NCBI GenBank assembly: GCA_945869735.1
Contig: CAMBPQ010000028.1
Span: 1-36,035, forward strand
DNA from: Planctomicrobium piriforme
Lineage (GTDB): Bacteria; Planctomycetota; Planctomycetia; Pirellulales; UBA1268
DNA: 36,035 nt
Direction: 5' to 3'
Position 1 is the first letter of the stretch. Each line of letters begins with the position of its first letter. Made by a program: the position numbers and the translations under genes. Shown here in pieces: positions 4,250-30,453 of the stretch. The notes under the pieces were generated by a model, which was not told where the DNA came from, ran no database searches, and saw only the letters and a list, made by a program, of their open reading frames with translations.

Positions 4250-5583
4250 GGATCGTCCATGTCACCGCCGGCGCCGGCGGCCGCATCTGCGGCTCGTGCC
4301 TCCACGACAACACACTCGTGCGGGCGCTCGTCGCCCGTGGCAGCGACGCGATCCTCGTGCCAGCCTACGTGCCGACGACGACCGACGAGGAAAATATCGC
4401 TGAGCAGAGGATCGTGATGGGCGGTGTGAACGTTTGGCTGCAGGAGCACGTGCCACTGTTTCGCCACACGCCCGCCTGGATCGACTGGCTCCTCGACTCA
4501 CGACGGCTGCTCGAATGGCTGTCGAGCCGCAACGGGGCCACGCGGCCGGCGGACCTGGGGCCGCTCACGATCTCTACGCTGAGGGGCATGCAGGGCAACC
4601 AACGCAAGGAGGTGGCGAAACTCACGCGGTGGCTCGCGTGCGACGTCCGTCCCGACGTCGTGCACCTCTCCAACGCGTTGCTGCTGGGGCTCGCGCGGCC
4701 GATCCGCGAGGCGACCGGTGCCCGCATCGTCTGCAGCCTGTCGGGCGAGGACATCTTCATTGACCAGATTCCAGCTCCCCACCACGCGACCATCGTGAAG
4801 CTCCTTCGTGAAGGCGCCGCCGACGTCGACCACTTCGTGGCGCTCAACCAATTCTTCGCCACCTTCATGGGTGAGCGGCTGGCGGTACGGCCGGAAGCGG
4901 TGTCTGTGATTCCGCATGGCGTCGATCTGGCGGAGTTTCCACCGGAACCGCCCGATCTCGTGGCCCGGCGACGGGGCCGAGGAAACCGGCTCGTCGTTGG
5001 GTTTCTGGCCCGCGCCTGTCCGGAGAAGGGGCTCGACCAACTCATCCGCGCGTTACCGCTGCTCGCAGCCCGGCACCAGGTCGAAATCCTCGCGGCCGGC
5101 GCGACGGTCGATGCGGAACGGGACTACATCGCACAGTGTCACGCGGTGGCTCGCGACCTCGGCGTGGCCGACCGCTTCCGGTGGCTGGGGCAGATTGACC
5201 GCAGCGGCAAGCTCGACCTGCTGGCATCGGTCGACGTGTTTTTGATGCCGACGACGCATGCGGAGGCCAAGGGCCTGCCGGTGATTGAGGCCATGGCCGC
5301 GGGAGTGCCCATCGGCGCCTCGAATCACGGCGCCTTTCCGGAACTGCTCGACGACGAGCGAGCTGGGTTGCTCCACACTCCGGGCGATCCTGCCGACCTC
5401 GCGTCAAAAATCGCCGCGATCCTTGACGATGAGTCGCTCGCATCGCGGTTGGGCCGCCACGGCCATGCCCTCGCGAGGGAGCGTCACACCGCCCATCAGA
5501 TGGCGGCGGCGCACGAGGCGCTCTACGAGCGGGTTTTTTTGAGAGGAAACCGGGAGCGCGAGCGAAGGGAAACCGGATCATGA
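4246..5583 (+). CDS. Glycosyltransferase family 4 protein
   Basis: Predicted 445-residue GT-B fold glycosyltransferase that transfers a sugar from an activated donor; donor and acceptor cannot be read from sequence. The N-terminal half begins with MRIVHVTAGAGGRICGSC, the glycine-rich acceptor-side loop. The C-terminal half has the GT4 pattern: VVGFLARACPEKGLDQLI, then FLMPTTHAEAKGLPVIEA with the E-x7-E type donor site, and GAFPELL. It starts at GTG 4246, overlapping the mnmG stop by four bases. The last dozen residues (RGNRERERRETGS) are encoded by a degenerate copy of the dispersed repeat (5545-5576), so the original C-terminus probably ended earlier. It may act in lipid or surface glycan synthesis, but that is inference. 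Confidence 0.9.
   Translation: MRIVHVTAGAGGRICGSCLHDNTLVRALVARGSDAILVPAYVPTTTDEENIAEQRIVMGGVNVWLQEHVPLFRHTPAWIDWLLDSRRLLEWLSSRNGATRPADLGPLTISTLRGMQGNQRKEVAKLTRWLACDVRPDVVHLSNALLLGLARPIREATGARIVCSLSGEDIFIDQIPAPHHATIVKLLREGAADVDHFVALNQFFATFMGERLAVRPEAVSVIPHGVDLAEFPPEPPDLVARRRGRGNRLVVGFLARACPEKGLDQLIRALPLLAARHQVEILAAGATVDAERDYIAQCHAVARDLGVADRFRWLGQIDRSGKLDLLASVDVFLMPTTHAEAKGLPVIEAMAAGVPIGASNHGAFPELLDDERAGLLHTPGDPADLASKIAAILDDESLASRLGRHGHALARERHTAHQMAAAHEALYERVFLRGNRERERRETGS
5545..5576 (-). repeat. Dispersed repeat copy 1, inside the glycosyltransferase 3' end
   Basis: Contains GGAGCGCGAGCGAAGGG, matching the core of the dispersed family. It faces copy 2 across about 45 bases, so the pair forms an inverted repeat. 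It has invaded, or been absorbed into, the end of the reading frame. Confidence 0.6.
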
Positions 5584-5620
5584 CCGTGGCAGTGGTGTGA
5601 AGCGGGGAGAGGTGGTGGAC

Positions 5621-5662
5621 GTATTCCCCGCGCTCGCGCTTGGGGCTTCCTGACAGGAAGCG
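5621..5662 (+). repeat. Dispersed repeat copy 2
   Basis: Carries CCCCGCGCTCGCGCTTGGGG followed by CTTCCTGACAGGAAGC, the full consensus. It is the left border of the composite element. Confidence 0.85.
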
Positions 5663-5850
5663 CAACCGTACGGATGGCAGAAACGATTCTCGATCGTGAG
5701 GAGCCGATCGGAGGCACGCGCAGACGCCGGGGAATGTTTGCGACTCACGAGCGACGCCCTGTCGGCCACGCGGGCATCCTGTAGCAAAATCCCCCTGCGG
5801 CGAGCATGTCTCAGCCGGCGAACCACTTTGGCACCGTCTCGATGCCAGCC

Positions 5851-5890
5851 GTATTCCTCGCGCTCGCGCTCGGGGCTTCCTGATTTGGAA
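5851..5890 (+). repeat. Dispersed repeat copy 3
   Basis: Carries GTATTCCTCGCGCTCGCGCT then GGGGCTTCCTGA, with a few changes from the consensus. It is the right border of the composite element and ends 15 bases from the TerC stop codon. Confidence 0.8.
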
Positions 5891-5905
5891 GTGCGGCCGT
5901 ACGGC

Positions 5906-6928
5906 TTACGCCGTTGGGCTTCCTGGGGGGGCGTCCTTGTCGTCCGCGATCTCGGCGCCGTGCCGTCGCTCAGGAAAGGCAAGGGAGGCGGCCACACTCG
6001 CGCCGATGAGCACCACGATGATCACGAGTGACACTGCGGGATGAATGAGATGGCCCTTCGCGTGGGCATCCCAGCCGCCCTGAGCGGCCAGCCACTCGTT
6101 GTGTCGGGCCGCCTCAGCGATCATCTTGCAGCCCACAAACACGAGCACCGCGGAGAGGCCGTAATTGAGAAACCGAAACAGATCCATGACGCCGGCCAGT
6201 AGGAAATAGAGCGCCCGTAGGCCGAGGATCGCGAACACGTTCGACGTGAAGGCGATGAACCGCATGTAGTGGGTGCCGGGCGTGACCACGCCGAGGATCG
6301 CCGGCACGCTGTCCACGGCGAAGAGCACGTCGGTGCTCTCCACCACGAGGAGTACGAGAAACAGCGGCGTGGCCAGCAGTTTCCCGTTCTCGCGGACGAA
6401 GAACCGGTCGCCGGCCGACTCCTTGGCGACCGGGACGAACCTCCGAAAGAAGCGGATCAGGGCATTTTCACCGGGCTCATGGTCACCGCCGCCGAGGGCC
6501 AGTTTGATGCCTGTGTAGATCAGGAAGCAGCCGAACACCCAGAGAATCCACTTGTAGCGTTCGACGAGTTCCGCCCCGAGGAGCACGAACGTGAGCCGCA
6601 TGATCACGGCGCCGAGGATGCCCCAGAAGAGCACGCGATATTGATACTTGAGCGGGACGCCGAAGTAGGCGAATACCACCGCGAACACGAAGACGTTGTC
6701 CATCGACAACGACCATTCGACGAGGTAGCCCGTGAGAAACTCGAGCGCTGGCTTGGCCCCGAGCCACCACCAGACCAGACCGTTGAAGGCCAGGGCCAGC
6801 GCCGACCAGAAGCAGGTCCAGAAGGCGCTCTCGCGGAGTGACGGCTCGTGCGACTTTTTGTGGAAGACGGTCAGGTCGAGCGTGAGCATCACGGTCACGA
6901 AGACCGCAAAGGCGATCCAGTGGGACAT
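5906..6928 (-). CDS. TerC family integral membrane protein
   Basis: Polytopic inner-membrane protein of the TerC/Alx family, whose members are linked to tellurite resistance or metal-ion (often manganese) handling and exoenzyme metallation; the substrate here is not known. About seven to nine membrane segments are visible, and the family's acidic membrane motifs are present: LTLDLTVFHKKSHEPSLRES, LVEWSLSMDNVFVFAVVF and VVESTDVLFAVDSVPAI. I chose the ATG at 6928 (MSHWIAFAVF), 340 residues, because it puts the first membrane helix at the N-terminus as usual. A TTG at 6982 would add 18 residues. The C-terminal tail is polar. It converges with the glycosyltransferase gene across the composite repeat. 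No Mn riboswitch is recognisable upstream. Confidence 0.93.
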   Translation of the reverse strand: MSHWIAFAVFVTVMLTLDLTVFHKKSHEPSLRESAFWTCFWSALALAFNGLVWWWLGAKPALEFLTGYLVEWSLSMDNVFVFAVVFAYFGVPLKYQYRVLFWGILGAVIMRLTFVLLGAELVERYKWILWVFGCFLIYTGIKLALGGGDHEPGENALIRFFRRFVPVAKESAGDRFFVRENGKLLATPLFLVLLVVESTDVLFAVDSVPAILGVVTPGTHYMRFIAFTSNVFAILGLRALYFLLAGVMDLFRFLNYGLSAVLVFVGCKMIAEAARHNEWLAAQGGWDAHAKGHLIHPAVSLVIIVVLIGASVAASLAFPERRHGAEIADDKDAPPGSPTA

Positions 6929-7417
6929 CTGGATGTCGCCGCCGAAGGGAGCGGAGCCGGCCACGTCTGCGAACAGGTGCAAGGTCGCTCGTCCAAGAAG
7001 GGGAAGGAAAGGAAGGGGATGGGGAGGGCGTCAGCCCCGAGAATCGTAGCAACTCGTGCCCCGCACGCAGGGAGACGGCGGGGCATCTTTCGGTAAAAAC
7101 TCCAATTTTCTCCAGTCAAACGCCCAGCGGCGGATTGAAAAATGGGGGGCTTGAGACCGGCGTGGCGCCCTTGTGGTCAGCCTGACCGGCACAACCGCGC
7201 CGAAAACCGTCATTTTTGGGCAGCCCGGCGTCCGGCACGCGGTGTGCAACCTACTGTCGACATGCCGCGGGTGGTGGACCAGCGGTCGGCCCGGTAGGGT
7301 CGCGGACCTTAGGCAGACGTCGCTCGGGTGTGGCGACAGATTGCCCCAGCACATCGCGGGGCCAAGCCGTCTTTCCGCGACCCACCGGCTCCGGTCGGGG
7401 CTCCACTCCGGTCGGCG
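6929..7417. other. 489-base gap upstream of TerC
   Basis: No plausible gene on either strand. It contains a near-perfect purine run at 6995-7028 (one T), which is pyrimidine-rich on the TerC-coding strand, and a short inverted repeat, GCCCCGC/GCGGGGC, at about 7058-7085. The part at 7140-7417 is GC-rich with several CCGGTCGG-like words but no recognisable element. It must hold the TerC promoter, which I cannot pinpoint. Confidence 0.5.
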
Positions 7418-7843
7418 CTACAGCGTCGCCTTCACGAAACTCGTTGTCATCGCGGCGAACACGGCCGCCACGCGCTCCCACTCCCGGTCCTCCGCCTGGC
7501 AGAGGATGAGGTAGACGGCCCCGGGCGTCTGCAAAGTCCGAATATGCGCCGTGTTGGTGAGGTCGAGGCAGTAAAAGTTCAGGTTGAACCCGGGTAACTC
7601 GCTTCCCTCAATCATGTCGGCGGCCGGTTCAGTATCGAGTTCCGGATACTCCTTCTGCAGCTGATTCACAATCGCCGCCGCGAGTTCGCGGGGATCACCG
7701 CCGCCTGCGTGGCCGCTCACCGACCAGAAGCCCCCCTCCGGGGAATAGACCGTGACGGTGGCGTAGTGGCCATCCGCATCGGCAGTATCGACCGACCAGT
7801 TGTCGGGATAGTCGAAGGCGAGCCCGAAGCGATCGAAGTGCAT
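7418..7843 (-). CDS. Small conserved-looking hypothetical protein
   Basis: 141 residues without signal peptide or membrane segment. It opens with FDRFGLAFDYPDNWSVD and has alternating strand-like segments (HYATVTVYSPEGGFWSVSG, NLNFYCLDL, AVYLILCQAEDREW) and a closing helix (VAAVFAAMTTSFV). This order resembles proteins with a PsbP/Mog1/DcrB-like alpha-beta fold, which often start with an FxYPxxW segment, but that is a pattern impression and not a family assignment. Codon usage is like that of its neighbours. It starts at ATG 7843, diverges from flhA across 165 bases, and is separated from TerC by 489 bases, so it is probably a single-gene unit. Function unknown. Confidence 0.8.
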   Translation of the reverse strand: MHFDRFGLAFDYPDNWSVDTADADGHYATVTVYSPEGGFWSVSGHAGGGDPRELAAAIVNQLQKEYPELDTEPAADMIEGSELPGFNLNFYCLDLTNTAHIRTLQTPGAVYLILCQAEDREWERVAAVFAAMTTSFVKATL

Positions 7844-8008
7844 GGGACATTCCGTGGTCGGTGGATGAGGCAGACCGGAATTGTAGCCGTTTCAGCTGCC
7901 GTGGAGCGGTCTGGACCGTCTCCGCCCCGCCCGCTACCGTCCCGCCTCCGGACGGGCCAGAAACCCCGCCGGCCCAACCCTTTGCATTCGTTCACGGTAC
8001 TCGCTCGC

Positions 8009-10111
8009 ATGGCACAGCCGCTTGGAACGGCCGCGGCCCTCCGCCGCCCCGTTTCCGCACACATCATGGACTACGCGATCCCCGCGGCCATTCTCCTGGC
8101 CGTGCTGGTGGTGCTCGCGCCCGTGCCGGCGGCCGTGGTCGACGTGCTCTTGGCGGTGAATCTCACCATCTCGGTGGTCGCCCTGCTCGGCGCCCTGGCG
8201 GCGCGGACGCCGCTCGATATGAGCATCTTTCCCACGTTCCTGCTCGGGATCACGCTCGTCCGACTCGTTCTCAACATCGCGACCACGCGGCTGATTCTCT
8301 CGCGGGCGGCGATCGACGGGTCCGCCGCTGCCGGCGAGGTCGTGGAATCCTTCGGCGAGTTTATGGCCGCCAACAACCTCGTGGTCGGTGGCGTGATCTT
8401 TGCGATCATCGCGATCGTGCAGTTCGTGGTGATCACGGCCGGCTCGACGCGGACGAGCGAGGTGGCGGCCAGGTTCGCGCTCGACGGCCTGCCAGGCCGG
8501 CAGATGGCGATCGACACGGAAGTCAACGCGGGCACGCTCACCCGCGAGCAGGCTCGCCGGATGCGGCTTGATCTTCAGCGGCAGGCTGACTTCTTCGCGA
8601 GCATGGACGGCGCCGGCCGCTTCGTCCGGGGCGAGGCGGTCGCGAGCGTAATCATCACGGCCATCAACATCGTCGGTGGTCTCGCCATCGGTGTCATCGA
8701 GCACGGCATGGCCGTCGACAAGGCGCTCGGCGTCTATGCCCGGCTCACGATCGGCGACGGCCTGTCGAGCGCGGTGCCGGCGCTCTTTATCTCGGTCGCC
8801 ACGGGGCTGCTCGTGTCGCGGTCCAGCCAAGCGGTCGACCTCTCGCGGGAGTTTGGCCGCCAGTTCACCGCCAAGCCCCACGTGCTCGCGATCACCGGGG
8901 TGTTCCTTGCGATTCTGTCGCTCTCCGGCCTACCCTTCCTGCCGCTGGCGGGCATGGCGGCCGTCACGCTCACCGCCGCCGTCATGCTCGCACGGCGGCC
9001 GGCCGTGGCCGACGACCCGATCGACGGCGGCGCGGAAGACGCGGGACAGACGTCCTCCGGCAGGACGGCCCCCCGCACAGCATCACCCGCCGACGAACTG
9101 CTCGCCGATGACCGCGTGGCGGTGGAACTCGGCCGCGGCCTGATCGGTCTGGTGGCGAAAGACGGGCCGCTCCTCGAGCGTGTCTCGATACTCCGCGGCG
9201 AGATCGCCGCAGATCTCGGCCTCGTCCTGCCGCAGGTGGCCTTCCGCGACGACCTCGCGCTGCCTGGCCGTGGCTACAGGATCACGATCGCCGGCGATGT
9301 CGTCATCGAGAGTGAGATTCCCGCGGGCCGGATGCTGGTGATCCTGCCGCCGGGCGAATCGTCGCCGGTTGAAGGTGATGCCGCCATCGATCCGCTCACG
9401 GGCCGCACTGCCACATGGGTGAGCCATGCCCAGGCCGAGACCTGCCGCCGCCGCGGGGCGGCGGTGCTCGATGATGCGGGCTGCGTCGTCCGCGCTGTCG
9501 AGACTGCTGTCCGTCGCCGCGCTGATCGGCTGCTGACCCGCGACGCCGCCAACCGCCTCGTCGAGTCGCTGCGGGCCGCGCAGCCGGCCGTGGTAGAGCA
9601 GATCGTGCCCAGCGTGCTCTCCGTGGCCCGCATCCAGCGGACGCTGCAGTGCCTGCTCCGCGAGGGGGTGCCGATCCGGCCGCTCGCCGAACTTCTTGAA
9701 ATCATGTCCGACCACGCCGCCGAAGCAGCCGAACCGTGGCAGCTCGCCGAGATCGTGCGTCGCCGGCTGGCAGGCACGATCTGCCGGCGGGCACGCGATC
9801 CACAGGGCAGGCTCACCGCGGTCCGGCTCGCCGGCGGGGTGGTCGATGAGATGGCGCGTCCGCTCCGGGGCGCGGCAGGTCGCGTGTCGGCGAAGCTCAT
9901 TGCCGAGGCGCGTCGGGCCGTCCGCACCGCTGTCGAACGCGGCGGCCAGCCGGTGGTGCTGGTGCCTGCGGCGGTTCGCCGCGCGGTCCGCGAGGCACTC
10001 AGCAAGCAGTTGCCGAATCTTGTTGTCCTCGCAGAGGAGGAGACGTTCGAAGAGGACCGGCTTGAGGTGTTTGCGACCGTGGGGGCAACGGAGACGGTCC
10101 GCGCGGCATGA
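8009..10111 (+). CDS. flhA: Flagellar export gate protein FlhA
   Basis: Inner-membrane component of the flagellar type III export gate; its cytoplasmic domain docks chaperone-substrate complexes. The 700 residues match the usual family length of about 690. The N-terminal 330 residues hold about eight membrane helices. The cytoplasmic loop has the FHIPEP signature region (TSEVAARFALDGLPGRQMAI, then NAGTLTREQARRMR), and the C-terminal half is the soluble FlhA-C domain, separated by a polar linker near residues 330-365. I chose the ATG at 8009 (MAQPLGTAAALRR). The frame stays open further upstream, but that stretch is proline- and arginine-rich and not FlhA-like. A second ATG at 8066 (MDYAIPAAILL) is possible. 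It precedes fliA by 264 bases; flhB, flhF and fleN are not adjacent. Confidence 0.96.
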   Translation: MAQPLGTAAALRRPVSAHIMDYAIPAAILLAVLVVLAPVPAAVVDVLLAVNLTISVVALLGALAARTPLDMSIFPTFLLGITLVRLVLNIATTRLILSRAAIDGSAAAGEVVESFGEFMAANNLVVGGVIFAIIAIVQFVVITAGSTRTSEVAARFALDGLPGRQMAIDTEVNAGTLTREQARRMRLDLQRQADFFASMDGAGRFVRGEAVASVIITAINIVGGLAIGVIEHGMAVDKALGVYARLTIGDGLSSAVPALFISVATGLLVSRSSQAVDLSREFGRQFTAKPHVLAITGVFLAILSLSGLPFLPLAGMAAVTLTAAVMLARRPAVADDPIDGGAEDAGQTSSGRTAPRTASPADELLADDRVAVELGRGLIGLVAKDGPLLERVSILRGEIAADLGLVLPQVAFRDDLALPGRGYRITIAGDVVIESEIPAGRMLVILPPGESSPVEGDAAIDPLTGRTATWVSHAQAETCRRRGAAVLDDAGCVVRAVETAVRRRADRLLTRDAANRLVESLRAAQPAVVEQIVPSVLSVARIQRTLQCLLREGVPIRPLAELLEIMSDHAAEAAEPWQLAEIVRRRLAGTICRRARDPQGRLTAVRLAGGVVDEMARPLRGAAGRVSAKLIAEARRAVRTAVERGGQPVVLVPAAVRRAVREALSKQLPNLVVLAEEETFEEDRLEVFATVGATETVRAA

Positions 10112-10277
10112 GTTGCTTCGCTGGTTTACAAAAGACACACACATACGACTGGATCACGCAGGCACACTGGAGAAACTGCGGTGGGTGCAGGGGCACCTGG
10201 GAATTGAATCAAGAGACCGTCATGCGGCTGCCGAAGAATAAAAGTTTTTCGGTCCAGTCAGGCTCGGCGGTGAGGAA

Positions 10278-10302
10278 GGCTGGCACCTCATGGGTGCTGG
10301 CC
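10278..10302 (+). other. Hairpin 1 in the fliA leader
   Basis: GGCTGGCACC pairs with GGTGCTGGCC around the loop TCATG: ten pairs, two of them G-U. No U-tract follows, so it is not a simple terminator. It is immediately followed by hairpin 2. Confidence 0.6.
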
Positions 10303-10307
10303 AACGG

Positions 10308-10343
10308 TGCGAAGGTTTCCGGCGGAGCCGGGACGCCTTCGCA
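10308..10343 (+). other. Hairpin 2 (two-tier) in the fliA leader
   Basis: An outer eight-pair stem, TGCGAAGG (10308-10315) with CCTTCGCA (10336-10343), encloses an inner five-pair stem, CCGGC (10319-10323) with GCCGG (10327-10331). It ends about 20 bases before the fliA ribosome binding site, which places it well for control of fliA translation or mRNA stability. Confidence 0.6.
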
Positions 10344-10375
10344 GATGCGATCGAGAACCTGTCAAGGAGGATGAC

Positions 10376-11167
10376 GTGGCACATTACGCCCCCCAACTGT
10401 CGGCGGAGGAAGTCCAGGGTCTCTGGAAGCGGTTCAAGCAGGACCAGTCCGACGAGGACCTCCGCAACCAACTGATCGAGCTCTACTTGCCGATCGTGAA
10501 GTACAACGGCGAGCGGATCTGGTCACGCCTTCCCGACGGCGTCGAGCTCGACGACCTCGTCTCGGCCGGCACGTTTGGGCTGATGGACGCCATCGACGCC
10601 TTCGATATGTCGCGGGGCGTGAAGTTCGAGACGTACTGCGTGCCGCGAATCCGTGGTGCCATGCTCGACGAGCTTCGCACGATGGACTGGGTGCCGCGGC
10701 TCGTCCGCAGCAAGGCCAGCAAGCTCAACGAGGCGCTTAAGCAACTCGAGGCCAAGTTCGGCCGTGCCCCGGCCGATGCCGAGGTCGCCGAGCACATGGG
10801 CCTGTCCCGGGAGGAGTTTGAAAAGCTCCTCATCGAGGCCAACGCCGTGAGCCTGGTGAGCCTCAACAAGAAATGGTGCGAGACCGACAGCTCGAAGGAA
10901 GTCCACGAGATCGACATCATCGAGGACAAGAAGGGGGAAGACCCCACGCGCCGGATCCAGAAGGCGGACCTCATGCGGCTCGTCACCAAAGGCCTCAACC
11001 GCAACGAGCGGCTGATCATCATCCTTTACTACTACGAGGAACTGACCATGAAGGAGATCGGGGCCACCCTCGACCTCTCGGAGAGTCGCGTCAGCCAGAT
11101 GCACAGCGCGATCGTCGAGCGGCTTCAGGGGCAGTTGGGCCGGCGGAAGCCTGAGTTCGCGATGTGA
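10376..11167 (+). CDS. fliA: RNA polymerase sigma factor FliA (sigma-28/WhiG type)
   Basis: Alternative sigma factor for late flagellar and chemotaxis promoters, 263 residues (family about 240-260). Region 2 contains LIELYLPIVKYNGERIWSR, DLVSAGTFGLMDAID and GVKFETYCVPRIRGAMLDEL; region 3 contains APADAEVAEHMGLSREEF; region 4 contains LNRNERLIIILYYYEELTMK, then LDLSESRVSQMHSAIV. The start is GTG 10376 because AAGGAGG (10364-10370) ends five bases before it. An ATG at 10371 is in another frame and would make a frame without protein character. A leader with two hairpins lies upstream. flgM, its expected antagonist, lies 330 bases downstream behind its own sigma-28-like promoter. Confidence 0.95.
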   Translation: MAHYAPQLSAEEVQGLWKRFKQDQSDEDLRNQLIELYLPIVKYNGERIWSRLPDGVELDDLVSAGTFGLMDAIDAFDMSRGVKFETYCVPRIRGAMLDELRTMDWVPRLVRSKASKLNEALKQLEAKFGRAPADAEVAEHMGLSREEFEKLLIEANAVSLVSLNKKWCETDSSKEVHEIDIIEDKKGEDPTRRIQKADLMRLVTKGLNRNERLIIILYYYEELTMKEIGATLDLSESRVSQMHSAIVERLQGQLGRRKPEFAM

Positions 11168-11497
11168 GGTGTCGGGGCTGGCTGGGCGGTCTGCGAAGGC
11201 CGGTCGCCCGCCCGAATCGGTAAGATGGGAAAAACTGGTAGGAAAAAAATCGAGTGAATTTTTCTGTCGAGTCTGTCGATAAAGAAAAGTTGGTCGCGGC
11301 GACCGGCGCGTGAAGATGACCGGCCGCTGTCCGACGACTGGAGTCGCCGGAACGCGGAAGCGCGGCAACAATGGTATGGAAAGGAAGCAGGTCCGGAATC
11401 GCGATCGTCTCAATGAACCCTCCGGCGGTGAGTCGCGTAGAAGCGGCCGTGCGGGGGACGAAGGGGATCGGAACAGGGGCCTGTCAGGAGTGCAATC
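11168..11497. other. 330-base fliA-flgM gap with promoter
   Basis: It holds an AT-rich stretch (about 11220-11290), unusual for this GC-rich window, with the sigma-28-like promoter inside. The rest of the gap, to the flgM ribosome binding site, has no gene I can support, which implies a leader of about 200 bases. Confidence 0.6.
11255..11282 (+). promoter_or_regulatory. Candidate sigma-28 (FliA) promoter of flgM
   Basis: TGAATTTT (11255-11262) matches six of eight bases of the enterobacterial sigma-28 -35 element TAAAGTTT. GTCGATAA (11275-11282) matches seven of eight of the -10 element GCCGATAA. The spacer is 12 bases where 11 is usual. It lies directly downstream of fliA and upstream of flgM. 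Confidence 0.5.
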
Positions 11498-11782
11498 ATG
11501 AATATCCTTGGTGTTTTTTCGACGCAGGGTTCGCAGGGTCTCGGTGCCGTGAAGGGTATCGAGGCCGCACAGGCGTCTCAGGCCACTGCTCCGCAGCAGG
11601 GCGTGGGTGAGGTGCACGACGCCGTGACGCTCTCGGTCGATGGCGTGAAGGCTGCTGATGCCGCCGCCGACATCCGCTTCGACCGCGTCAACGCGATCCG
11701 CGCGGCGATCGCTGACGGCTCGTACGACACGGCCGACAAGCTCGACATCGCCCTCGACCGCCTCCTCGAGCGGCTCAGCTGA
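11498..11782 (+). CDS. flgM: Anti-sigma-28 factor FlgM
   Basis: Predicted 94-residue inhibitor that binds FliA until the hook-basal body is complete and is then exported. The C-terminal half carries the FlgM pattern: RFDRVNAIRAAIADGSYDTA, then LDIALDRLLERL, equivalent to the R-x-E-K-V-x-x-I-R-x-x-I-x-x-G-x-Y core. The N-terminal half is glutamine- and alanine-rich and probably disordered, as is typical of the exported part. Start ATG 11498 has CAGGAG seven bases upstream. The gene follows fliA, with a sigma-28-like promoter upstream and two strong hairpins downstream, so it looks like a self-limiting regulatory unit. Identity rests on the C-terminal pattern and the context. Confidence 0.82.
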   Translation: MNILGVFSTQGSQGLGAVKGIEAAQASQATAPQQGVGEVHDAVTLSVDGVKAADAAADIRFDRVNAIRAAIADGSYDTADKLDIALDRLLERLS

Positions 11783-11787
11783 AAAGC

Positions 11788-11814
11788 CACGGCGGGAAGC
11801 CCTTTCCCGCCGTG
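11788..11814 (+). terminator. Hairpin terminator 1 after flgM
   Basis: CACGGCGGGAA pairs perfectly with TTCCCGCCGTG (11 pairs) around a five-base loop, five bases after the flgM stop. There is no U-tract beyond it. Its position and strength suggest transcript-end formation. Confidence 0.65.
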
Positions 11815-11825
11815 ACAGCATGATG

Positions 11826-11855
11826 AGCGGCCGGACCGGCAACGGTCCGGCCGCT
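11826..11855 (+). terminator. Hairpin terminator 2 after flgM
   Basis: AGCGGCCGGACC pairs perfectly with GGTCCGGCCGCT (12 pairs) around a six-base loop. It lies 11 bases after the first hairpin, giving tandem terminator-like structures between flgM and the Fur-family gene. Confidence 0.6.
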
Positions 11856-11910
11856 GGCATTTCATGAGGCCGTTGACCTTCGCTCGCGGCATGCTGGCCG
11901 CGTGCGCGTC

Positions 11911-11944
11911 CCTTCAGGAAGCCCGAAGCGAGCGCGGGGAATAC
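11911..11944 (-). repeat. Dispersed repeat copy 4
   Basis: CTTCAGGAAGCCCGAAGCGA followed by GCGCGGGGAATAC: a slightly shortened copy (one core dinucleotide missing) in minus orientation, between flgM and the Fur-family gene. Confidence 0.7.
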
Positions 11945-11972
11945 TCCCTCCACCCCTGTCCGGGCAGTCGGG

Positions 11973-11978
11973 TACAAT
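11973..11978 (+). promoter_or_regulatory. Candidate -10 of the Fur-family gene
   Basis: TACAAT matches five of six bases of the housekeeping -10 element, 25 bases upstream of the ATG at 12004. GGGAG (11991-11995) is the likely ribosome binding site. No convincing -35 is seen. Confidence 0.35.
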
Positions 11979-12003
11979 CATTGAGATGACGGGAGTATGA
12001 CCG

Positions 12004-12510
12004 ATGGCCGTGGGTTCTGATTTTTCGCTTGGCAGTGTCGACGTGGCGCTCACGCCCGCCGCGCGATTCGCCGAGTTTTTGCGTACCCGCGGCAAGCGGA
12101 TCACGCGACAGCGTCGCGTGATCGTCGACCACGTGGCCAGTCACCACGAGCACTTCGACGCCGAGCAACTCCTGGCCGGTCTGCGGAAGACGCCGGAGGG
12201 ATCGCGGGCCAGCCGCCCGACGGTCTACCGCACGCTCGCCGAAATGGTCGACGCGGGGCTTCTCAAGAAGATGGTGCTCGACGGCCGCGCCGTCTACGAA
12301 CACGACTACGGCTACCCCCAGCACGACCACCTCTACTGCACGGGCTGCCGCACGCTGATCGAGTTTTCGAGCGACGAGGTCGCCAGGATCTGCGACGCGG
12401 TCGCCGGTCAGCATCAGTTCCGCGCCCAGTCGCACCGCCTGATCGTGACCGGTTTGTGCACTCACTGCCGCTCGAGTAAGAGCCGCAGCCGGCATCAGGA
12501 CCGGGTGTGA
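12004..12510 (+). CDS. Fur family metal- or peroxide-responsive transcriptional regulator
   Basis: 168-residue DNA-binding repressor of the Fur superfamily. The winged helix covers about residues 20-90: GKRITRQRRVIVDHVASHHE, HFDAEQLLAGLR, and the recognition helix SRPTVYRTLAEMVDAGLL. The dimerisation domain carries HDHLYCTGC (H107, H109, C112, C115) and GLCTHC (C152, C155), the two CxxC pairs of the structural zinc site. Whether it senses iron, zinc, manganese or peroxide cannot be told from sequence, and no metal transport gene lies next to it. The basic tail (RSSKSRSRHQDRV) is longer than usual. It stands alone between flgM and the convergent purB. Start ATG 12004 has GGGAG upstream. Confidence 0.92.
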   Translation: MAVGSDFSLGSVDVALTPAARFAEFLRTRGKRITRQRRVIVDHVASHHEHFDAEQLLAGLRKTPEGSRASRPTVYRTLAEMVDAGLLKKMVLDGRAVYEHDYGYPQHDHLYCTGCRTLIEFSSDEVARICDAVAGQHQFRAQSHRLIVTGLCTHCRSSKSRSRHQDRV

Positions 12511-12535
12511 TCATCGGGGAACGGGCTGCCTGTCC

Positions 12536-12577
12536 CTCCCGTCAGGAAGCCCCAAGCGCGAGCGCGGGGTATACGGG
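12536..12577 (-). repeat. Dispersed repeat copy 5
   Basis: CTCCCGTCAGGAAGCCCCAA then GCGCGAGCGCGGGGTATAC: full consensus in minus orientation, and one border of composite copy II. Confidence 0.88.
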
Positions 12578-12760
12578 TGGCACCGAGACGGTGCCGGAAT
12601 GGTTCGCCGGGGCTGACATGCTCGGCGCCGGGGATTTTGCTACGGGATGCGTGGCTGGCCGACGGGCCATCGCTCGTGAGGCGCAAACATTCCCGGCTTC
12701 TGCGCGTGCCACCCCCGGCTCCTCACGATCGGGAGTCGGGTGGGTCAACCGTGGGCGTTG

Positions 12761-12803
12761 CCTCCCGTCAGGAAGCCCCAAGCGCGAGCGCGGGGTATCC
12801 GGG
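12761..12803 (-). repeat. Dispersed repeat copy 6
   Basis: Nearly identical to copy 5 over 35 bases (CCTCCCGTCAGGAAGCCCCA, GCGCGAGCGCGGGGTATCC) and in the same orientation. The second border of composite copy II, about 30 bases from the purB stop. Confidence 0.88.
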
Positions 12804-19268: not shown

Positions 19269-19326
19269 GCGCTTGCAGGGCGCCGAGACCGCATGAGCTT
19301 TTGGTGTGGAGCGGGGCGGTGTGCTA

Positions 19327-19370
19327 CCCGTATACCCCGCGCTCGCGCTTGGGGCTTCCTGGCGGGAGGC
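19327..19370 (+). repeat. Dispersed repeat copy 7
   Basis: CCCGTATACCCCGCGCTCGC, then GCTTGGGGCTTCCTGGCGGG: consensus copy in plus orientation, abutting the 72-bp repeat. Confidence 0.88.
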
Positions 19371-19440
19371 AAGGGGGTCGGCGAACGCTCGAGGAGCCTT
19401 GGGCGTATTCTCGCCCCGGCGACGAGACTTTTGCCGCCCC
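19369..19440. repeat. 72-bp repeat, copy 1
   Basis: Identical to 22559-22630 at 71 of 72 bases (19409 is T, the other copy has C). It begins GCAAGGGGGTCGGCGAACGC and ends GACTTTTGCCGCCCC, and contains the small hairpin GGGCG/CGCCC. Both copies sit in convergent gaps. Confidence 0.92.
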
Positions 19441-27900: not shown

Positions 27901-27940
27901 CCAAGAAGCCCGGAGCGCGAGCGATGGGCATACGGGTGGC
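27901..27940 (-). repeat. Dispersed repeat copy 8
   Basis: CCAAGAAGCCCGGAGCGCGA, GCGATGGGCATACGGG. With copy 9 it forms an inverted pair spanning 27901-28021 that could fold as one long hairpin. Confidence 0.82.
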
Positions 27941-27978
27941 GGGTGTGACGGCGGCGCGGAGCGGGTTGGGGTGGTGGG

Positions 27979-28021
27979 CGTATACCCCGCGCTCGCGCTT
28001 GGGGCTTCCTGTCGGGAGGCG
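27979..28021 (+). repeat. Dispersed repeat copy 9
   Basis: CGTATACCCCGCGCTCGCGC, TTGGGGCTTCCTGTCGGGAG. The preceding 20 bases (GGAGCGGGTTGGGGTGGTGG) recur before copy 13, so the conserved unit is about 120 bases long. Confidence 0.88.
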
Positions 28022-28065
28022 GTGCATTTTATCGCATGGAGACGGACGTGGGGCCGCGTCGGGTG

Positions 28066-28107
28066 CCTTCAAGAACCCCGGAGCGCGAGCGACGGGAAAG
28101 CGGGTGG
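28066..28107 (-). repeat. Dispersed repeat copy 10
   Basis: CCTTCAAGAACCCCGGAGCG, CGAGCGACGGGAAAGCGGG: third copy in the rnhA-recG gap, minus orientation, 21 bases before the recG start codon. Confidence 0.8.
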
Positions 28108-28127
28108 CGACGCGGTAGACTTCGCTG

Positions 28128-30242: not shown

Positions 30243-30267
30243 CGTGAAGCCCGGTGGAGTGGAGGGC

Positions 30268-30308
30268 GTATTCCCCGCGCTCGCGCTTGGGGCTTCCTGA
30301 CGGGAGGC
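30268..30308 (+). repeat. Dispersed repeat copy 11
   Basis: GTATTCCCCGCGCTCGCGCT, TGGGGCTTCCTGACGGGAGG: consensus copy, 26 bases after the recG stop. Confidence 0.88.
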
Positions 30309-30330
30309 GGTGCGGGCGGTGGCTTCGGGT

Positions 30331-30373
30331 GCTTCAAGAAGCCCGGAGCGCGAGCGACGGGTATACGGGCGGC
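30331..30373 (-). repeat. Dispersed repeat copy 12
   Basis: GCTTCAAGAAGCCCGGAGCG, CGAGCGACGGGTATACGGG. Middle of three alternating copies in the recG-mqnE gap; it can pair with the copy on either side. Confidence 0.88.
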
Positions 30374-30410
30374 AACCGTAGACGTGACACGGAGCGGGTT
30401 GGGGTGGTGG

Positions 30411-30453
30411 GCATACTCCCCGCGGTCGCGTTTGGGGCTTCCTGTCGGAAGGC
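30411..30453 (+). repeat. Dispersed repeat copy 13
   Basis: GCATACTCCCCGCGGTCGCG, TTTGGGGCTTCCTGTCGGAA. It ends two bases before the mqnE stop codon. Positions 30334-30453 align with 27901-28020 over about 120 bases. Confidence 0.82.

Follow-up and report, generated by a model that had tools for sequence, protein, structure and literature searches.

ERIC is a 127-bp repeat that forms a single long stem-loop and was reported in Yersinia to affect neighbouring genes as RNA hairpins (PMC2267715). The bcr1–bcr18 repeats of the Bacillus cereus group include several MITE-like families and others with a conserved RNA structure, and about half of the bcr copies were found in transcripts (PMC3446304). 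REPINs are inverted doublets of REP sequences tied to RAYT genes (PMC3116915). Tagged REPs also occur between convergent and unidirectional genes, and Planctomycetes hold REP families (PMC3733652).

We analyzed a 36,035-nt stretch of DNA (the window), contig C28 of a draft planctomycete MAG (G000; 3.17 Mb, ~95% complete), against related records comprising freshwater and other planctomycete MAGs. The window contains two copies of a ~150-nt structured repeat that was apparently not described before: no description of it was found in the open literature searched or in Rfam, which is no proof of novelty. Like ERIC, the element is intergenic and non-coding, occurs in tens to hundreds of copies, and forms a long imperfect hairpin; it differs in its host, which belongs to an unrelated phylum, and in its conserved asymmetric internal loop and variable tip, the comparison being one of descriptions. 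The bcr repeats also belong to another phylum, and their likeness to the planctomycete element is likewise one of description, not of sequence. As in ERIC- and bcr-type families, many intergenic non-coding copies of ~100–170 nt with one common secondary structure were found.

With REPs and REPINs the element shares a preference for the 3' ends of genes and REP-like palindromes, which flank most copies in its own genome; however, these flanking repeats are direct, RAYT is absent from G000, and the core is not derived from REP. The outer palindromes resemble GTAG- and CGTC-tagged REPs in being short, abundant, and extragenic, and some read CGTC-AGGAAGCCCC... on one strand, but their stem matches the published description of CGTC-tagged REPs only loosely; this likeness concerns the flanks, not the core.

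The element is probably a new ERIC/bcr-like structured intergenic repeat, non-autonomous and active as RNA, with selection acting on its folded strand. It represents a covariation-supported structured repeat at ~90–140 intergenic sites of a freshwater planctomycete, with no recognised mobiliser. Since related species share some of the sites and differ at others, it offers a good test case of whether bacterial structured intergenic repeats should be regarded as parasites, as RNA genes, or as parasites that have been retained as RNA genes.

The twin stretches and their family

As the first-pass annotation had stated, the stretch 5621–5890 aligned throughout with the reverse complement of 12536–12803 (BLASTN, 83% identity over 259 nt, E = 6e-63). 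The likeness extended beyond the flanking repeats: in local alignment, the inner ~172 nt reached a score of 104, whereas the maximum of 500 shuffles was 28 and the best other places in the window typically scored 27–32. Both copies indeed lay in tail-to-tail gaps—copy 1 (5621–5890) between glycosyltransferase (+) and TerC (−) genes, copy 2 (12536–12803) between Fur (+) and adenylosuccinate lyase (−) genes—and were bordered by same-direction repeats (Table 1). In alignment A1, built from 33 cores of several genera, copies differed in length by numbers that were not multiples of three, in agreement with the non-coding character ascribed to the stretches.

Table 1. Features of the two copies in the window (positions are those of the window).
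Feature	Position	Strand	Basis and remarks
Structured unit, copy 1	5691–5842	+	Conserved ~150 nt; covariance-model core 5699–5824; model R1, 120.9 bits
Structured unit, copy 2	12582–12731	−	Covariance-model core 12601–12723; model R1, 96.7 bits; aligns with copy 1
REP-like double hairpin upstream of copy 1	5620–5661	+	BLASTN, motif matches, predicted fold
REP-like hairpin downstream of copy 1	5850–5891	+	Same direction; BLASTN, motif matches
REP-like hairpin upstream of copy 2	12762–12801	−	BLASTN, motif matches
REP-like hairpin downstream of copy 2	12534–12575	−	Same direction; BLASTN, motif matches, predicted fold
Internal loop, 5' strand, CGCGCAG (GCA of the GCA/GA loop)	5717–5724	+	Alignment A1, pair counts
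Internal loop, 3' strand, CGAGCATG	5801–5808	+	Alignment A1, pair counts

The same annotation had described the element as present twice, which is true of the window and not of the genome: the twin stretches are two members of a large dispersed family of roughly 90–140 copies in one genome. These counts rest on motif and model searches. The family motif GGCACGCGCAG-N65..95-CGAGCATG, searched for by exact match, was found in at least 89 copies in G000 (42 forward and 47 reverse), and the reversed motif, used as a control, in none; BLASTN of the same genome returned at least 41 long matches. A covariance model detected six copies in 136 kb of G000 chosen without regard to the element, a small sample whose extrapolation suggests ~140 copies per genome.

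Exact-motif copies numbered 43 in genome G028 and 1–25 each in other genomes of genera g1, g8, g10, and g12; other genera contained none. Model R1 detected the element in 23 of 60 genomes of the family, belonging to five genera, with g9 and g10 represented by a single copy in one genome each. Among 392 genomes across the phylum, our own genome was the only match in a search of low sensitivity (nine candidates scored per genome). The element is limited to a few genera within a single family of freshwater planctomycetes. Within one genus, copy numbers spanned 0 to at least 89: BLASTN and motif searches detected none in six genomes of the same genus (G003, G007, G010, G012, G013, and G014), and neither did the covariance model in the two of them searched with it (G012 and G013). 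Since several genomes of the genus lack the element, it is dispensable. Phage and plasmid collections contained no similar DNA, and all 15 motif matches in viral contigs were at chance level (24 bits or less); carriage by phages or plasmids was therefore rejected.

Unit boundaries and flanking palindromes

The replicating unit was the inner ~150 nt (structured units in Table 1): among 44 own-genome copies, conservation was mostly 90–99% over ~142 columns and about 40–90% outside them. The outer ~40 nt represented a separate and commoner REP-like palindrome, which BLASTN matched at many sites of the window and which had ~20 CCCCGCGCTCGCGCTTGGGGCTTCCTGACGGGAGG motif matches in 136 kb of G000, in a scan that also took in a few variant motifs. 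In genus g8, the unit stood alone, starting with CTCC(A/C)GATGCTGAGGA and ending with CGAACCAAT.CGG followed by unique DNA, with no REP-like repeats and no obvious terminal inverted repeat at its clean ends; thus, the outer CCCCGCGCTCGCGCTTGGGGCTTCCTGACGGGAGG repeat belongs to a separate REP-like family. In the own genome, several copies lacked the 5' REP-like repeat and a few the 3' one, and in other genomes different palindromes neighboured the core. The first-pass suggestion of a mobile element, non-autonomous and with the repeats for ends, therefore survives in part. Dispersal is borne out by at least 89 copies, species-specific subfamilies, and a recent subgroup of 97–98% identity; a role of the flanking repeats as the ends is not supported, given the bare core in g8 and the own-genome copies that lack one of them.

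Some genomes of the genus had copies (L087, L100, L101, and L102) that adjoined CACAGGTTTTCAACCTGTG palindromes, not the REP-like repeat. An alternative 3' continuation, GGGCTGG.TTCAGCACGCAGCA in place of CGAACCAATGCGG, was seen in six g8 loci (L189, L190, L195, L196, L205, and L212). The window also contained REP-like double hairpins with no core (11903–11954, 19322–19372, 27902–28108, and 30259–30453); the inverted REP-like neighbours at 27902–28021 and 30259–30453 resembled BIME-type clusters.

Hairpin structure and strand preference

The cores formed a single long hairpin, which comprised a basal stem P1, an asymmetric GCA/GA internal loop beside a C.A mismatch, stems P2–P3, and a variable tip; in A1, double changes occurred at 13 of its 25 predicted pairs. 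The loop was invariant in A1, where the core finder itself required CGCGCAG and CGAGCA; this requirement cost 1 of 28 foreign BLASTN loci, a contig-end fragment, and thus introduced a small but real bias. With two added pairs, 92.7% of cells paired, and pairing fell to 33–45% when partners were slid by 1–3 columns. Cells with double changes numbered 72 versus 20.1 ± 3.3 in shuffles, a control that does not keep relatedness. The minimum free energy was not better than that of shuffles for copy 1 (z = 0.31) and was moderately so for copy 2 (z = −2.25); the structure is therefore claimed from comparison, not from energy.

New wobble cells in G000 were G.U in 25 cases versus A.C in 5 (p = 0.0003 by cells, which share ancestry), and in genus g8 the numbers were 9 and 2. 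Since copies occur in either orientation, any mutation bias should cancel out, and the G.U excess points to selection on the folded + strand. Comparison of the copies thus indicates that the element strand is probably selected as a single-stranded nucleic acid, RNA or ssDNA, and most simply as RNA. For the second proposal of the first-pass annotation, a non-coding RNA gene, the covariation and the excess of G.U over A.C favour the RNA-type structure. Several tip classes on one scaffold coexisted in each of the genomes G028, G018, and G079, with a common CACCAT...CC..GAGC-like motif.

Regarding known RNA families, no Rfam match at the gathering score was found in the window, and a permissive Rfam scan of 16 relatives returned only tRNAs and three chance-level matches, so known families, including ribozymes, had no Rfam support. 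A hammerhead-like CUGANGA...GAA at the base, noticed by eye, was dropped, as other subfamilies do not have it. Integron attC arrays were rejected because the placement of copies is dispersed and their orientation random.

Position, candidate mobilisers, and retention between genomes

Gene neighbours were called with a purpose-written codon-usage scorer. For 34 copies of the own genome, genes were called on both sides; 21 of these copies were in convergent gaps, 3 in divergent ones, and 5 in each of the two co-directional arrangements. The convergent share exceeded that of all sampled gaps of 100 bp or longer (21/34 versus 13/44, Fisher p = 0.006). No same- or opposite-strand bias relative to the neighbouring genes was found.

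On the reading that we prefer, each copy would be a ~150-nt non-autonomous dispersed element whose + strand folds as RNA into the long hairpin. It would spread through intergenic DNA, mainly at the 3' ends of genes, within one family of freshwater planctomycetes, often adjoining lineage-specific REP-like palindromes, and would be mobilised by an enzyme acting in trans. The selected part would be the folded RNA, derived from read-through of neighbouring genes or from the element's own promoter; its most likely role may be that of an ERIC/bcr-type RNA element, a protein-binding hairpin or one that changes how 3'-UTR transcripts are processed or how stable they are.

An ordinary DNA-level miniature transposon (MITE or HUH/REPIN-like), whose ssDNA or cruciform hairpin is recognised by a transposase in trans with no role for RNA, is possible but doubtful. 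The large number of copies, their dispersal in either orientation, the subfamilies specific to a genome, the avoidance of promoter gaps, and the association with REP-like palindromes are all compatible with it, and folded single-stranded DNA also tolerates G.T wobbles. It is less easily reconciled with the clear strand preference for G.U over A.C, with some fixed copies being more conserved than their flanks, with REP-like ends that are direct and absent in another genus, and with the lack of RAYT and TnpB in G000. RAYT (PF01797, Y1 transposase) had no match in this genome (~95% complete), while the controls matched; a REPIN/RAYT system was rejected on this ground and because the REP-like repeats of each window copy are not inverted. 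TnpB (PF07282) and TROVE (PF05731) were found in none of 12 genomes, some carrying the element and some not, and were rejected as partners of an RNA-guided or Ro60-type RNA. The genes located between close inverted pairs of the element looked ordinary cellular by eye, so pairs flanking a transposon gene were rejected as well.

The RVT_1 domain was found in G000 and G076 and was absent from the element-bearing draft genomes G028, G060, G018, and G063. In G000, one full reverse transcriptase gene, apparently of the group II intron type, lies on contig C36 (locus L265, 1834–3057). Group II-like reverse transcriptase is doubtful as the mobiliser, as no element lies within the 5 kb surrounding this gene and several element-rich genomes have no reverse transcriptase. 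A bacterial SINE-like system, in which a short structured RNA selected on one strand would be copied to ~100 loci per genome by an unrecognised RNA- or ssDNA-dependent enzyme and some copies kept as locus-specific small RNAs, seems unlikely.

Comparison of sites between genomes revealed both copies that are well conserved at their position and copies that turn over. For window site 1, 29 related loci were searched and none had the element, so this insertion is not common to the known relatives; none of these loci provided a clean empty site for copy 1, the relatives being too distant for the junction. No clean empty site displaying a target-site duplication, the check proposed in the first-pass annotation, turned up; the one presence/absence site, between G060 and G074 (~94% identical), holds unrelated DNA in the genome without the element. 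These two genomes also share sites: at one, the unit was 100% identical with flanks of 93–95%; at the other, the core was 89% identical, and paired changes kept the stem (AGCCGG/CCGGCG to AGTCGG/CCGACG and GAATTCTGC/GCAGAATCC to GAACTTTGC/GCAAAGTCC). At a site shared by G060 (contig C68) and G079 (C213), the unit was 100% identical with flanks of 90%, and its tip was found only there among the matches listed. At a site shared by G028 and G067, by contrast, the core was less similar (77%) than the flanks (83–90%), which apparently reflects replacement by another subfamily. Conservation in place may stem from gene conversion.

These sites bear on another reading, in which the copies are functional small RNA genes of one multi-copy family, each maintained with a common scaffold and its own tip and not as a selfish repeat. 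Locus-specific tips fully conserved between species whose flanks differ by 5–10%, the coexistence of tip classes on one scaffold, and compensatory changes between orthologues speak for it; however, many copies look species-specific in their site, as does window site 1, no promoter signal was found near copy 1, and the wide range of copy numbers within one genus also tells against it. We judge it decidedly unlikely. Scarcely credible is a reading of the element as the fixed part of a larger intergenic mosaic that recombines, its copies being spread and homogenised through gene conversion and segmental duplication, without any dedicated mobility or RNA role. This would account for intergenic regions mosaic with REP-like blocks, for the subfamily replacement, and for the exchange of whole intergenic content at another site, but not for cross-genus covariation with an invariant internal loop, discrete unit ends in g8, or strand-specific wobble bias.

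A recent G000 subfamily of ~280 bp with 97–98% identity was represented by six loci, L103–L108 (contigs C79, C55, C3, C119, C113, and C42). They had a precise common 3' end, AAGTTCCCCGAAGGACC, followed by unique DNA, and at least one of them, L104, started later at the 5' end. In the copy of this subfamily near 5435–5547 of L107, the middle of the hairpin was deleted between two GCCGG-type stem strands.
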